From Polaribacter sp. IC073 (GTDB lineage Bacteria; Bacteroidota; Bacteroidia; Flavobacteriales; Flavobacteriaceae), in assembly GCF_007997075.1 (NCBI RefSeq), contig NZ_VORS01000005.1:124001-188000 (forward strand): 64,000 nucleotides of DNA, in the 5' to 3' direction. Under the pieces are notes generated by a model that saw only the letters and a program-made list of their open reading frames with translations, was not told the origin of the DNA and did no database searches. Position 1 is the first letter of the stretch. Each line of letters begins with the position of its first letter. The position numbers and the translations under genes are program-made. Below, piece by piece: positions 13,739 to 24,339 of the stretch.

Positions 13739-14302
13739 TTGAAAAACTATAAACAAATACAAACGAAAAGCATTGCTGTAATTTATTTTACAGTAATGCT
13801 TTTTTCTTGCTCTAATAGTACAGAAGAAGTTCGGAATTTTTTAGAGGAAAAAAACTTGCCAATTGGAAAAGCAAAAGAGGCATATCATGTGTATAAAGAT
13901 TCAGGAAGAATTACCTCTAAGTTAATTACACCTTTACTTTTAGATTTTAGCAATCGAAAAAACCATCCTTATAATGAATTTCCTAAAGGAATAAAAATTA
14001 TAAATTTCGAGAATAATGGTAAAGATTCTGTAACTATTGTTGGTAATTATGCCTTATCTTATGCAAAAACAGAAATATCAGAAATTAAAGGAAATGTTGT
14101 TATTACAAATCATACAGACAAATCTAGATTAGAAACAGAACAATTGTTTTGGGATCAAAAGACAAAGTACTTTGTCTCTGAAAAAGCATTTACCTTGTAT
14201 AAAGTAAACGATACAATAACAGGCGTTGGCTTTGAATGTAAAGAAGACTTAAGCAAACATTTAGCAAAAAAAACAACAGGAATAATAGAAACAAAAGAAT
14301 AA
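13739..14302 (+). CDS. lptC: LPS export protein LptC (lipoprotein-like)
   Basis: Part of the Lpt bridge that moves lipopolysaccharide from the inner to the outer membrane. It begins with TTG three bases after the TPR gene stops; no upstream ATG is available, and the next ATG would remove most of the signal. The N-terminal hydrophobic segment ends in VMLFSC, a lipobox. The body has the LptC-like alternating beta-strands (GIKIINFENNGKDSVTIVGN, KGNVVITNHTDKSRLETEQL, FWDQKTKYFVSEKAFTL). Length 187 is typical. Its place before a CNNM-type gene is conserved in flavobacteria from memory. Confidence 0.85.
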   Translation: MKNYKQIQTKSIAVIYFTVMLFSCSNSTEEVRNFLEEKNLPIGKAKEAYHVYKDSGRITSKLITPLLLDFSNRKNHPYNEFPKGIKIINFENNGKDSVTIVGNYALSYAKTEISEIKGNVVITNHTDKSRLETEQLFWDQKTKYFVSEKAFTLYKVNDTITGVGFECKEDLSKHLAKKTTGIIETKE

Positions 14303-20697: not shown

Positions 20698-20729
20698 AAC
20701 TAACATCTTAGTATATTTAGTGCGAAAAG

Positions 20730-20757
20730 AAACCGAGATTTATTCTCGGTTTTTTTA
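20730..20757 (+). terminator. Terminator of the DUF4293 gene
   Basis: Hairpin AAACCGAG / CTCGGTTT with a 7-base loop, followed by seven T. Confidence 0.85.
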
Positions 20758-20880
20758 TTTTACATCCTTAAATAAGATTTTTAATATTTTTTAAAAAAAA
20801 AATTACTTTTTTTATAACTCCAAAAGGGTTTAAAATAGGGTTTTTTAAAAAACTAATAATCAGTTATTTAAGGTGTTCGG

Positions 20881-20947
20881 TATCCCTGAATTCAGGGATA
20901 CGTATCCCTGAATTCAGGGATGCTAAAAACATACTGTTTTCAGGGAT
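20881..20947. promoter_or_regulatory. Triple palindromic operator upstream of the response-regulator gene
   Basis: TATCCCTGAATTCAGGGATA at 20881-20900 is a perfect 20-bp palindrome. It recurs at 20903-20922 with one end mismatch, and the two copies joined through CG make a perfect 40-bp palindrome at 20882-20921. A third, degenerate site (CTGTTTTCAGGGAT, 20934-20947) touches the -33 box. Centres lie at 20890.5, 20912.5 and 20938.5, spacings of 22 and 26 bp. This is the layout of a multi-dimer operator controlling the promoter at 20946-20977. Confidence 0.75.
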
Positions 20948-20977
20948 TGTACAGTCTAATAATCTAGTTTAAATTTG
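20946..20977 (+). promoter_or_regulatory. Promoter of the response-regulator gene
   Basis: ATTG at 20946-20949, a 20-bp spacer and TAAATTTG at 20970-20977, ATG at 20989. The -33 box overlaps the third operator site. Confidence 0.7.
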
Positions 20978-20988
20978 TAGAGTAAACA

Positions 20989-21654
20989 ATGAGAAAAAAA
21001 ATATACGTTCACGTAGCTGATGACCACAAAATTTTAATTGAAGGTATCATCGCTGTAATAAATACTGATGAAGATATTGAGATAAGAGATTTCTCTTTAA
21101 CCGGACAAGAAGTAATTGATTGGTTTAAAAAAAAGGAGAACAAAGCAGATGTTTTAATATTAGACATCACCATGCCAGTTTTAGATGGTTTTGAAGTTTT
21201 AAAATATTTTTACGAGAAAAGAATAAATCAAAAAGTAATTGTTTTATCTAGTTATGATGATGTGAAGATTGTTCAAGAAGTTTTAAGATTAGGAGCTAGT
21301 GGTTACATCTCTAAAAACAATGCAGGAGAGCACATTATCAAAGCAATTAAAGCAGTTGCAAATGGAGAACAGTATTTTAGTAATGACATTCAAGATGAGT
21401 TGTTAAAAGGTATCTCTGGGCAGAGAGCAAGAAAAGGAGATATGCCAGAAGACTTTTTGTTTGAGTCTTTAACAGAGCGAGAGAAAGATGTCTTACGGTT
21501 TGTAACAAAAGAATTAAGTACAGGTGAGATCGCAGATAAAATGAATATAAGCCATCATACCGTAGAATCATATAGAAAAAAATTATTAAAAAAATTAAAT
21601 GTAAAAAATTCAGTAGGATTAGCAATGTATGCAGTAAAGTTTAAGTTAGTATAA
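20989..21654 (+). CDS. NarL/FixJ-type response regulator (REC plus LuxR HTH)
   Basis: Cytoplasmic DNA-binding response regulator of 221 residues. The receiver domain (about 5-125) has the acidic pair Asp11-Asp12, the phospho-acceptor Asp59 in VLILDITMP, and Lys109 in GYISKN. A GerE/LuxR helix-turn-helix lies at about 155-215 (LTEREKDVLRFVTKELSTGE, then IADKMNISHHTVESYRKKLL). The histidine kinase two genes downstream is the obvious partner. It sits directly behind a triple palindromic operator and may regulate itself (inference), since dimeric LuxR-type regulators bind palindromes near 20 bp. Confidence 0.93.
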   Translation: MRKKIYVHVADDHKILIEGIIAVINTDEDIEIRDFSLTGQEVIDWFKKKENKADVLILDITMPVLDGFEVLKYFYEKRINQKVIVLSSYDDVKIVQEVLRLGASGYISKNNAGEHIIKAIKAVANGEQYFSNDIQDELLKGISGQRARKGDMPEDFLFESLTEREKDVLRFVTKELSTGEIADKMNISHHTVESYRKKLLKKLNVKNSVGLAMYAVKFKLV

Positions 21655-21813
21655 CCTATCCCTTATTTAAGTTTTAGATTTAAAATATCTATCCCCTAAA
21701 AAACTTAAATGCATTCCCCCAAATATTAGTACTAGATATTTGTATACATTGTTTCTCTTACATATTAATCCCCTAATCAACTATTTTGAAACCTCAATAA
21801 ACCCTATTTTATT

Positions 21814-22524
21814 ATGAAAATCATCAAATTATTATCTTTCGTTATTGTGTCTGCATTTATGTTTTCTTCATGTTCTAGTAATGAGAATTTACTTCCTGAA
21901 GCAGAAACAACAAATTCGTTAAAATCATATAAAGTAAAAAGAGATGCTTCTGGTGCGTATTCAATTGATTTTGATTTAGAAAATAATGTAAAATCAGAAA
22001 TCGTTAAAAATCACGATACAAATACAAATGAATTTCATTTGTTTAAATCAGATTATACTACCAGTAAAAAACAATCTGAAGAATTATTAATTAATGGTAA
22101 TAAATTAAGTATTGGTTTTATAGATACTAGAACAGATAGAAATTCTAATATAACCATTGAAGATGATAACACTTCTTTAGCAAAAACAAGTGATATAAAT
22201 CCAAGAATGTTATCAGAATATAGCATTTCTAGTAATGAGGATGGATCATATAACTTAGACTTTAAAGTGAAGAATAAAGTAAGTGTAGATTTTATTTATA
22301 ATGAAGAAATGAGTACTTATGAGATTCATTTGGAAGAAGGGAAGTCAGGAGAGACAAATTTTTCTAGAAACCTGACTAAGATAGCTGGTTTAACATTGAA
22401 AATTGATTTTGTAAACCATACAATTGATAATAGCAATGCTAAAGGCTATTCTTTTAAAGAAACAACACCTAGAAGAAAGCCTAGAATTGCTGTTGATAAT
22501 GGTGAAAGTGGGGAAAATTTATAA
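21814..22524 (+). CDS. Lipoprotein with a duplicated domain, between response regulator and kinase
   Basis: Signal peptide with lipobox FSSC (Cys20) in MKIIKLLSFVIVSAFMFSSC. Two tandem copies of one domain follow: copy 1 at about residues 37-108 (YKVKRDASGAYSIDFDLENN ... LLINGNKLSIGFIDTRTD) and copy 2 at about 129-212 (YSISSNEDGSYNLDFKVKNK ... IAGLTLKIDFVNHTID). Each has a Y-x-V/I-x-x-x-x-x-G-x-Y-x-x-D-F opening and an N-K/T-L-x-I-x-F ending. No family is recognised. It lies between the response regulator and the histidine kinase and could be a sensing partner or the main output of the system (inference). Confidence 0.6.
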   Translation: MKIIKLLSFVIVSAFMFSSCSSNENLLPEAETTNSLKSYKVKRDASGAYSIDFDLENNVKSEIVKNHDTNTNEFHLFKSDYTTSKKQSEELLINGNKLSIGFIDTRTDRNSNITIEDDNTSLAKTSDINPRMLSEYSISSNEDGSYNLDFKVKNKVSVDFIYNEEMSTYEIHLEEGKSGETNFSRNLTKIAGLTLKIDFVNHTIDNSNAKGYSFKETTPRRKPRIAVDNGESGENL

Positions 22525-22542: not shown

Positions 22543-24339
22543 TTGAAAAAGAGAATTCAAACACTATTTTGCATATTTTATATTTCTTTTAATATCTACC
22601 AATTAAAAGCTGCCCCCAATAATAGATATGGTACTGAAGAGGTTTCAACTAGTGAAACTTCTTCAGTATTTCTATTTAAAATAGATTCTGTTTTTATCAG
22701 AAAATATAATAAGGTTTTAAAAAAGTATAAAGAAGAAAGTTACATAGAAGCATTGCGGGATGCGTTAAAAATTTATGATGAATCTAAAAGTCATGCTAAT
22801 AAGGACAACATTTATAAAATTACTTCACTTATTGCAGATATCTATGATAAAGCAAATAATCATGAAAGAGCATTAGACTATTATAAAGAGTCTTTATTAG
22901 TTCTAAACAGCAAAATATATTTAGACAATCTAAGCAATGATTACTCATTAAAAAATATAGCAAAAACCTATTTAAGAATAGGTAGTACATTTCAAAGACT
23001 TATGAAAAGGGATAGTGCTAAGTATTATTTTGAGAAAATTGATAGCTTAGCAAGTGTCAATGACGAAATAATAATATATAAAGCTGCTTCCTACACTAAT
23101 TTAGCTGGAATATATGAATTAGACTCGTTATTTGATAAGGCTATTGTATATGCTGAAAAAGCAATTATTCTTCATAAAATAACAAATAATAAAATAAGTG
23201 AAGCTAAAGCAACCGTGAACTTGGGAAATATCTATTTATCTATTAATAATTTTTTAAAGTCTAAAGAGACATATTTAAAAGGTATTGAACTGATAAAAAA
23301 TGATAATAAACAAACTGCCGTAAGGCTAAAAGCAGACCTATATTACAACTTAGCTTGGGCAATGCGTAACTTAAAAGAATATGAAGCTTATGACAACCTC
23401 GAGCTTTCTTATGAAATTGAAGATGGCATAAGAGACAAGGAAGTAAGAAGAATGGTTGAGGAGGTTACAGCAAATTTTGATGTAGAAGGCGTGAAAAAAG
23501 AGGAGGAAAATAAAAGGTTGCGACAAAATGAAATTTTCTGGAAATTTGCAATTGCAGCTGCAATTATAATCATAACGTTGCTTTACTGGTTGAGTTTAAA
23601 TAGATTGAAACAAAAAAATTTAGGACTAAAATTATCTCAAACCCAGTTATTACAAAATCAGAATATAGAAAAACTTAAATCTGAATCTCAAACAAGAATT
23701 TTAAATGCAACGATAGATGGTAAGGAATCTGAGCGAAAAGAAATTGCAGAAACACTTCATGATAGTGTAAGTGCATTATTATCTTCTGCGAATCTTCATT
23801 TAATTGCAACTAAATCTCAGTTTAAAGGAAATGTTCCAATAGAAATAGATAAAACTCAAAGCATTATTGCAGAAGCCTCTCTAAAAATTAGAGATCTATC
23901 TCACACACTGGTTTCTGCGGTATTACTAAAATTCGGATTGAACTTTGCGCTAAAAGATATGGCTTCTAAGTACTCTAATTCTGCTTTATATGTTGATACC
24001 GATATTTCTGACATAAGAAGGTACCATCAAAATTTTGAAATAAAAATATACAATATTATTCAAGAATTTGTAAATAATATATTAAAACACAGTAAAGCAA
24101 AAAATGCTATTATAAAACTTTATGAGAAAAATAATAGCATTTATTTTAAAATTTCTGATGATGGTATTGGATTTGACAAAACAGAGATCTCTAATAAAGA
24201 TGGTTTAGGATTAAATCAAATTGATGCTAGAATACAAATGATGCACGGTAAGTTTTTAATAGAATCTAACCTTGGGAAAGGAACCGTTGTCTCAGTAGAA
24301 TTACCAATTGTAGAAAAAGGAGTGATTAACCACGGGTAG
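22543..24339 (+). CDS. TPR-sensor histidine kinase (HisKA_3 type)
   Basis: Starts with TTG 19 bases after the lipoprotein gene; no ATG is available before the signal peptide (MKKRIQTLFCIFYISFNIYQ). Residues about 60-290 form periplasmic TPR-like helices (YIEALRDALKIYDESK, HERALDYYKESLLVLN, KATVNLGNIYLSINN). One membrane helix lies at 333-353. A coiled segment follows. The dimerisation/phosphorylation helix carries His406 in ERKEIAETLHDSVSALLSS. The HATPase has N-box IIQEFVNNILKHSKA, ISDDGIGFD and GLGLNQIDAR. It phosphorylates a NarL-type regulator, most likely the one at 20989. Its last 14 bases overlap the convergent phosphoesterase gene. Confidence 0.9.
   Translation: MKKRIQTLFCIFYISFNIYQLKAAPNNRYGTEEVSTSETSSVFLFKIDSVFIRKYNKVLKKYKEESYIEALRDALKIYDESKSHANKDNIYKITSLIADIYDKANNHERALDYYKESLLVLNSKIYLDNLSNDYSLKNIAKTYLRIGSTFQRLMKRDSAKYYFEKIDSLASVNDEIIIYKAASYTNLAGIYELDSLFDKAIVYAEKAIILHKITNNKISEAKATVNLGNIYLSINNFLKSKETYLKGIELIKNDNKQTAVRLKADLYYNLAWAMRNLKEYEAYDNLELSYEIEDGIRDKEVRRMVEEVTANFDVEGVKKEEENKRLRQNEIFWKFAIAAAIIIITLLYWLSLNRLKQKNLGLKLSQTQLLQNQNIEKLKSESQTRILNATIDGKESERKEIAETLHDSVSALLSSANLHLIATKSQFKGNVPIEIDKTQSIIAEASLKIRDLSHTLVSAVLLKFGLNFALKDMASKYSNSALYVDTDISDIRRYHQNFEIKIYNIIQEFVNNILKHSKAKNAIIKLYEKNNSIYFKISDDGIGFDKTEISNKDGLGLNQIDARIQMMHGKFLIESNLGKGTVVSVELPIVEKGVINHG

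Follow-up and report, generated by a model that had tools for sequence, protein, structure and literature searches.

What reads the palindromes that stand ahead of a two-component regulator gene in Polaribacter sp. IC073, and do they serve this gene alone? The sites lie at positions 20881-20977 of the window, the whole stretch of 64,000 nucleotides that was analysed. Operator site 1 (20881..20900, unstranded) is a perfect 20-bp palindrome (TATCCCTGAATTCAGGGATA), and operator site 2 (20903..20922, likewise unstranded), 22 bp from site 1, is the same palindrome with 1 mismatch. The sequence-only reading had taken the 20-mer to be repeated exactly; the palindrome at 20881-20900 is as described there, but the copy at 20903-20922 agrees in 19/20 positions, its last base being G. 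The 40-bp palindrome that the same reading had proposed is present, positions 20882-20921 being identical on both strands (read by eye). Because the linker between the sites is unsymmetrical at most other places, this 40-bp symmetry is incidental, and the conserved feature is two palindromes about 22 bp apart. Perfect 18-bp palindromes occurred in the whole window at centres 14168, 20890, 20901 and 20912 only; the 18-mer centred at 14168 is the sole further one, away from 20881-20922. In 100 shuffled versions of the window, the 20-mer had 0 matches when up to 3 mismatches were allowed. When the whole window was scanned for 18-mers 22 bp apart, the 20881-20922 pair scored 18/18 positions and the next best 14.

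Downstream of the pair, a degenerate third site on the plus strand (TACTGTTTTCAGGGATTG, 20932..20949) lies 26 bp from site 2 and overlaps the -33 element of a promoter (20946..20977, plus strand), which consists of an ATTG -33 element at 20946-20949 and a -7 box, TAAATTTG, at 20970-20977. The promoter had been called well formed: TTG stands at 20947-20949 and the -7 box fits TAnnTTTG, the flavobacterial sigma-A -7 consensus as given in PMC9723704. Spacings near two helical turns had been proposed for all sites; this fits the 22 bp between sites 1 and 2, but the 26 bp to the third site amount to about 2.5 turns. The transcription start would lie near 20982, and relative to it the site centres fall near -91, -69 and -43. 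Such positions are typical for activators.

The operon behind this promoter encodes, in order, a response regulator (RR), a lipoprotein and a TPR histidine kinase. The RR (20989..21654, plus strand, 221 aa) is of the NarL type, with a receiver and a GerE domain; its Pfam matches (Response_reg 2.3e-20, GerE 2.9e-18) place it in NarL/FixJ. The recognition helix is S188-K198, and residue 190 is H in this genome. The 13 RR relatives from named genomes comprised 11 from Polaribacter, 1 from a Bacteroidia bacterium and the weakest (26% identity) from Chitinophagaceae. The lipoprotein (21814..22524, plus strand, 236 aa, lipobox Cys20) is predicted to form two similar beta-rich domains. It was matched (E 0.001) in 115/146 genus genomes, once in each apart from two genomes with two partial matches. 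Beyond the genus it was clear (E <1e-15) in only 4/299 family genomes scanned, a count that excludes the own genome and one genome of the same genus, which were also matched. Its structure model (mean pLDDT 78.7) gave no match to the PDB at E <=0.001. The kinase (22543..24339, plus strand; HisKA_3, HATPase_c) is the presumed partner of the RR, and the lipoprotein may signal envelope state to its TPR part.

The motif was also found elsewhere in the own genome, where it appears to mark a regulon that the sequence-only reading had missed. Tandem CCCTGAWWTCAGGG pairs with exact 22-bp spacing occupy 7 intergenic places: the RR operon, two predicted small RNA (sRNA) genes overlooked in the sequence-only reading, one S8 protease and three lipoprotein loci. 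The S8 protease carries a type 9 secretion tail, and the three lipoprotein loci are adjacent and have a common leader, one of them bearing a Tox-MPTase3 domain. The predicted sRNA genes, sRNA-A (C5 43775-43898, minus strand) and sRNA-B (C19 101602-101690, plus strand), have no long reading frame and end in a terminator-like hairpin. All 7 pairs are followed by a third site and then by a TAnnTTTG-like -7 box, so that the degenerate third site proposed from the window recurs next to the other tandem pairs. The 14-mer core with 2 mismatches gave 21 matches, against 1 on each strand for the reversed control. One partial copy of the motif stands at C48 168732, ahead of a small XRE regulator; two more lie at C19 538350 and 549033 and flank ORFs that, as named from their reading frames, are ABC (peptide-exporter-like), HlyD-like and small GG-leader-like (L009). 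Repeated lipoprotein genes with near-identical leaders and the same promoter were also observed in L007 (10409-18015, own C19), L035-L039 and L056-L059; some have metallopeptidase-toxin domains, and they resemble duplicated cassettes.

When up to 3 mismatches were allowed, 10/146 genus genomes, including the own genome, had the tandem pattern, as did 1/397 family genomes, which was the own genome; the reversed pattern had 0 matches in the 146 genus genomes. Orthologous promoters do in this sense lack the exact sequence, but in most of them the place is taken by another palindrome, one suited to the RR of that genome. Random dispersal was not seen, as 0/36 places in the ten genomes overlap an ATG ORF of at least 100 aa (the 36 are 39 oriented rows minus three that give the same place in the wrong orientation). 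The RR promoter was among the tandem-pattern places in 7/9 other genomes; in G431 and G409 the double palindrome of the RR promoter is centred on AGCT and falls outside the pattern.

This replacement of one palindrome by another was followed across the genus. RR genes were present in 99/102 loci and the 3 loci without one were dropped; 87 belong to genomes with G handles, and the 12 named-genome loci (L060-L071) were omitted from class counts because several are the same genomes as G-handle loci. A clean tandem pair was found in the RR promoter of 59/87 genomes, the other 28/87 being dropped for weak operator detection. Palindrome variants at the RR promoters include TCCCTGAATTCAGGGA, TCACTGTTTTCAGTGA, TCACGGTTTTCCGTGA, TCCCCATTTATAGGGA, TACGTATTTATACGTA, TACCCATAAATGGGTA and TTAGGGTTAACCCTAA, among others. 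The architecture is constant in the 59 genomes while the palindrome letters vary (TCCCTG, TCAC, TCCC[C/T], TACG, AGGG and others); both arms of both sites vary jointly, and the RR recognition helix varies along with them. After L136 was dropped because its helix was unaligned, 58 genomes remained in which residue 190 could be set against operator class. Histidine went with TCCCTG (10 genomes), asparagine with TCAC/TCAT (18), lysine with AGGG (18), arginine with TACG (2) or TACCC (1) and threonine with ACCCC (1); serine went with TCCC[C/T] in 7 genomes and, as the one exception, with TCCCTG in 1. In the K class (e.g. L117, L123, L135 and L161) the half-site is reversed (AGGGTTAACCCT) and the spacing is 20-21 bp, as if the RR dimer sat differently on the DNA. 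The notion that the third site is wholly blind to class had to be softened: it follows the class in L076, L104 and L118, and elsewhere not. Given this partial agreement with class and the offset of 2.5 turns, the proposed cooperative binding of three dimers is unproven.

When the 221 RR columns were ranked by their excess mutual information with the operator, residue 190 came 1st (2.72 nats of 4.67; the runner-up had 2.43); once the value was divided by column entropy it came only 12th, with clade markers ahead of it. It aligns with the lysine in EKTVKN of DosR in an alignment to solved structures, by position Lys179. PMC4082495 describes DosR Lys179 as one of three base-contacting residues. 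At the level of sequence, the covariation of the palindromes with the RR's own recognition helix strongly supports autoregulation by the encoded regulator, which the sequence-only reading had preferred. The palindromes might conversely be bound by some other regulator, e.g. the small XRE-type member of the regulon, and the RR be merely a target; a small XRE gene follows such sites in L054, in two S-class genomes and, at the partial copy, in the own genome. We consider this quite unlikely, since it is the RR recognition helix that covaries with class, with residue 190 at the top of the 221 columns, and since the RR promoter is the place occupied in most genomes (8/10 in the pattern, the other two with the AGCT centre).

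Shared ancestry has to be weighed against autoregulation too: clades might differ in residue and operator for unrelated reasons, and the association be a coincidence. There are few independent switches on the tree, and clade-marker columns of the receiver domain score high as well. The tree built from the receiver domain and the lipoprotein requires at least 8 class changes and at least 6 changes of residue 190. Well-supported branches show three separate gains of N with TCAC, 3/3 in step, although three origins are too few for a sign test to reach significance (p 0.25). Relatives in other genera bear on the same point. In 27 RR loci from other genera, including six fetched via the lipoprotein, a palindrome was present 45-95 bp before the ATG in 10, the interval having been picked after the output had been seen; in 17/27 there was no palindrome 45-95 bp before the ATG. 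The operators of S relatives were TCCC in 3/3, all from one genus, and those of N relatives TCAC in 5/7, TAAC in 1 and another, AT-rich sequence in 1. Altogether 8/10 were as predicted and none were crossed, and in the six lipoprotein-fetched loci the rule holds in the four with a readable palindrome. Given the three independent N/TCAC origins in step, this agreement in other genera, and the tracking by sRNA operators of their own genome even inside classes (p 0.004 to 0.048, below), an explanation by ancestry is very unlikely. Several of these other-genus relatives have a single palindrome plus a third site of the same sort, which suggests that Polaribacter may have gained the tandem arrangement later.

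Next, the sRNA genes were compared across the genus. The covariance models, built with promoter sequence excluded, used 5 rows for sRNA-A and 3 rows for sRNA-B. At E 0.001 they matched in 32/146 and 52/146 genomes respectively; many weaker matches are probably chance. Weak matches were excluded from the operator comparison, which used 24/30 sRNA-A and 21/30 sRNA-B loci; G425 and G536 have no RR operator, leaving n=23 and n=20, and rows in which the detector had taken the wrong stretch were retained. By reading, the pair upstream of the sRNA was of the genome's own class in 20/23 sRNA-A and 14/20 sRNA-B rows. A pair of another kind was recorded in 3/23 and 6/20 rows, most of which are detector errors or single sites, and the sRNA-B of G445 has no operator pair upstream. 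The sRNA-A operators differed from the RR operator of their own genome by 0.78/6 mismatches and from those of other genomes by 1.66 (n=23, permutation p 5e-5, kinship ignored); the values for sRNA-B were 1.60/6 and 2.36 (n=20, permutation p 5e-5, kinship ignored). The match also held within classes, again with kinship ignored, for sRNA-A (TCAC p 0.014, n=16; TCCCTG p 0.048, n=7) and sRNA-B (TCAC p 0.014, n=11; TCCCTG p 0.004, n=9). The architecture, its recoding, the covariation with the RR and the common class at most sRNA genes can all be read directly from the sequences.

Other classes were searched with their own patterns. The S-class pattern gave 11 places in three genomes: 3 RR promoters, 2 sRNA-A-like stretches, 2 XRE regulators, 1 secreted protein, 1 sRNA-B identified from its terminator, and 2 C-rich stretches that share the sRNA-B neighbourhood. 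With the R-class pattern, G402 had 2 places, G449 had 1, and G516, which itself carries a TACCC operator, had 0. The second of the G402 places is ahead of a lipoprotein that looks related to one from G445, a genome with H-class operators.

The recoding across distant loci also bears on two readings in which no regulator recognises the letters. The palindromes could be nucleic-acid structures (a cruciform, an RNA hairpin or an attenuator), and perfect inverted repeats that keep their symmetry while their letters change would suit such a role. However, the palindromes lie upstream of the -33 element and so outside the predicted transcript, within one genome their letters recur at distant loci and go with the RR helix, and the loop centre varies freely inside a genome; a purely structural role is extremely unlikely. 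A dispersed repeat family or cassette copied ahead of several genes, without regulatory role, would suit several copies in G000, G431 and G445, which precede lipoprotein genes with near-identical, duplicated-looking leaders. Against such copying, orientation, spacing and promoter distance are fixed at the RR and sRNA genes, the copies are intergenic only, and other genomes have a different class ahead of the same gene kinds, which makes it exceedingly improbable. The single-repeat and cassette readings were dropped on the orthologue and class tests, and binding by the RR is the reading that we carry forward.

The RNAs share a C-rich motif. The intergenic RNA between the RR and lipoprotein genes (21655..21813, plus strand) has repeated C-rich motifs, UCCCC(C/U)AA; at this position CCCC occurs in 84/87 genomes and GGGG in 0/87, and in the first 170 bases after the RR stop the mean number of CCCC was 2.98, compared to 0.24 in shuffles (87 genomes). 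A run of at least 4 C was present in 19/19 sRNA-B and 22/23 sRNA-A rows and GGGG in none. This motif stays constant while the operators change class, and it probably serves something besides the RR. The C-rich motifs of the RR-lipoprotein interval are strand-specific and recur in both sRNAs; the interval may act as a built-in sponge or be a third small RNA. The predicted fold of sRNA-B has a conserved stem and a loop with two C-rich runs, followed by the terminator; two-sided changes were seen in only 1/20 predicted pairs, because the stems hardly vary. In some genomes sRNA-A is multi-copy, e.g. with five copies on one strand in G433; this tandem array (C1 3024407-3025886) is reminiscent of other multi-copy regulatory sRNAs. 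Rfam 15 gave 0 matches at gathering score in L005, L006, L007, L009 and L010. Its sub-threshold matches in window positions 20701-22000 were mostly miRNA-like chance matches to hairpins, and were set aside.

A close parallel in working is the Gac/Rsm type of system. UvrY of BarA-UvrY is a NarL-type RR that reads an 18-bp inverted repeat before the sRNA genes CsrB/C, and few of its targets besides the sRNA genes matter, according to PMC4682653. Here inverted repeats lie upstream of predicted sRNAs, and the covariation suggests that the NarL-type RR may read them. However, the RR scores 129.6 bits on NF007018 (cut-off 280), outside the UvrY/SirA/GacA family, and its kinase is a TPR HisKA_3 protein. 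The RNAs are C-rich in contrast to the GGA of Gac/Rsm, with no conserved G-rich repeat in the alignments (counted as GGGG, not GGA), and the operator is a close tandem pair adjoining the promoter, with a strong autoregulatory site. By the tests made, the system resembles Gac/Rsm in working and is not a member. The Rcs phosphorelay is an envelope-linked system with the RcsF lipoprotein, the NarL-family RcsB and the sRNA RprA. A lipoprotein, a NarL-family regulator and predicted small RNAs likewise occur together here, envelope sensing being a guess. By contrast with Rcs, the RR scores 71.2 bits on the RcsB model (cut-off 235), the operon shows no phosphorelay parts, the kinase is again the TPR HisKA_3 protein and the lipoprotein has no PDB relative. 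LexA operators differ between bacterial phyla together with the whole SOS regulon; as with LexA, the operator of an orthologous regulator is recoded across a regulon, but here inside one genus and for a two-component response regulator. The DNA-binding domain has the GerE fold of DosR, NarL and LiaR, with residue 190 at the DosR base-contact lysine, but the operators differ from theirs and position 190 varies among H, N, S, R, K and T in the genus. Rfp18 is a Flavobacterium sRNA that acts on secreted proteases, as stated in PMC9723704; the likeness, a flavobacterial sRNA linked to secreted proteases, is one of description. The exact motif occurred in none of the open-licence PubMed Central papers searched, and no description of a Polaribacter small RNA with response regulator and promoter, of the regulon, or of such operator recoding was found among them.

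We consider it likely, with good confidence, that the palindromes are bound by the RR, which thereby switches on its own operon together with an sRNA regulon, and that switches of specificity led by residue 190 were followed by the targets. Direct binding, activation, phosphorylation, and the expression and function of the sRNAs are what we infer from the comparisons. RR dimers, phosphorylated presumably by the operon's own TPR kinase, would bind the two adjacent palindromes and, from sites 1 and 2 on the same DNA face, would activate the sigma-A promoter; the third site, which overlaps the -33 box with its right half, may assist the polymerase. The RR would thereby raise its own operon (RR, lipoprotein and kinase). 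Further regulon members would be the two small RNAs, with their exposed C-rich motifs, secreted proteases and lipoproteins that are specific to lineages and, in some genomes, the small XRE-type regulator. The half-site would be chosen largely by residue 190, H taking TCCCTG, N TCAC, S TCCC[C/T], R TACG/TACCC and K AGGG. This specificity would have switched several times within Polaribacter, with target promoters following. A more far-reaching version is tentative and, in our judgement, falls a little short of probable: a sensor-to-sRNA switch of the Bacteroidota, in which the TPR kinase, the lipoprotein and the RR drive sRNAs whose C-rich loops, with a counterpart in the RNA that follows the RR gene, titrate a C-rich-binding partner, and in which at least 6 changes of the DNA code, mainly via one residue, recoded the regulon each time and left a natural series of mutually insulated RR-operator pairs.

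The DNA code of a regulator is usually thought slow to change, as every target must change too. In Polaribacter, one orthologous two-component regulator has seemingly recoded its half-site repeatedly within one genus, with its operon, sRNAs and secreted-protein genes following. If true, this would provide a natural series for studying the recoding of a regulon, a specificity rule for GerE domains that turns on one residue, and an entry to small-RNA control in marine Bacteroidota.
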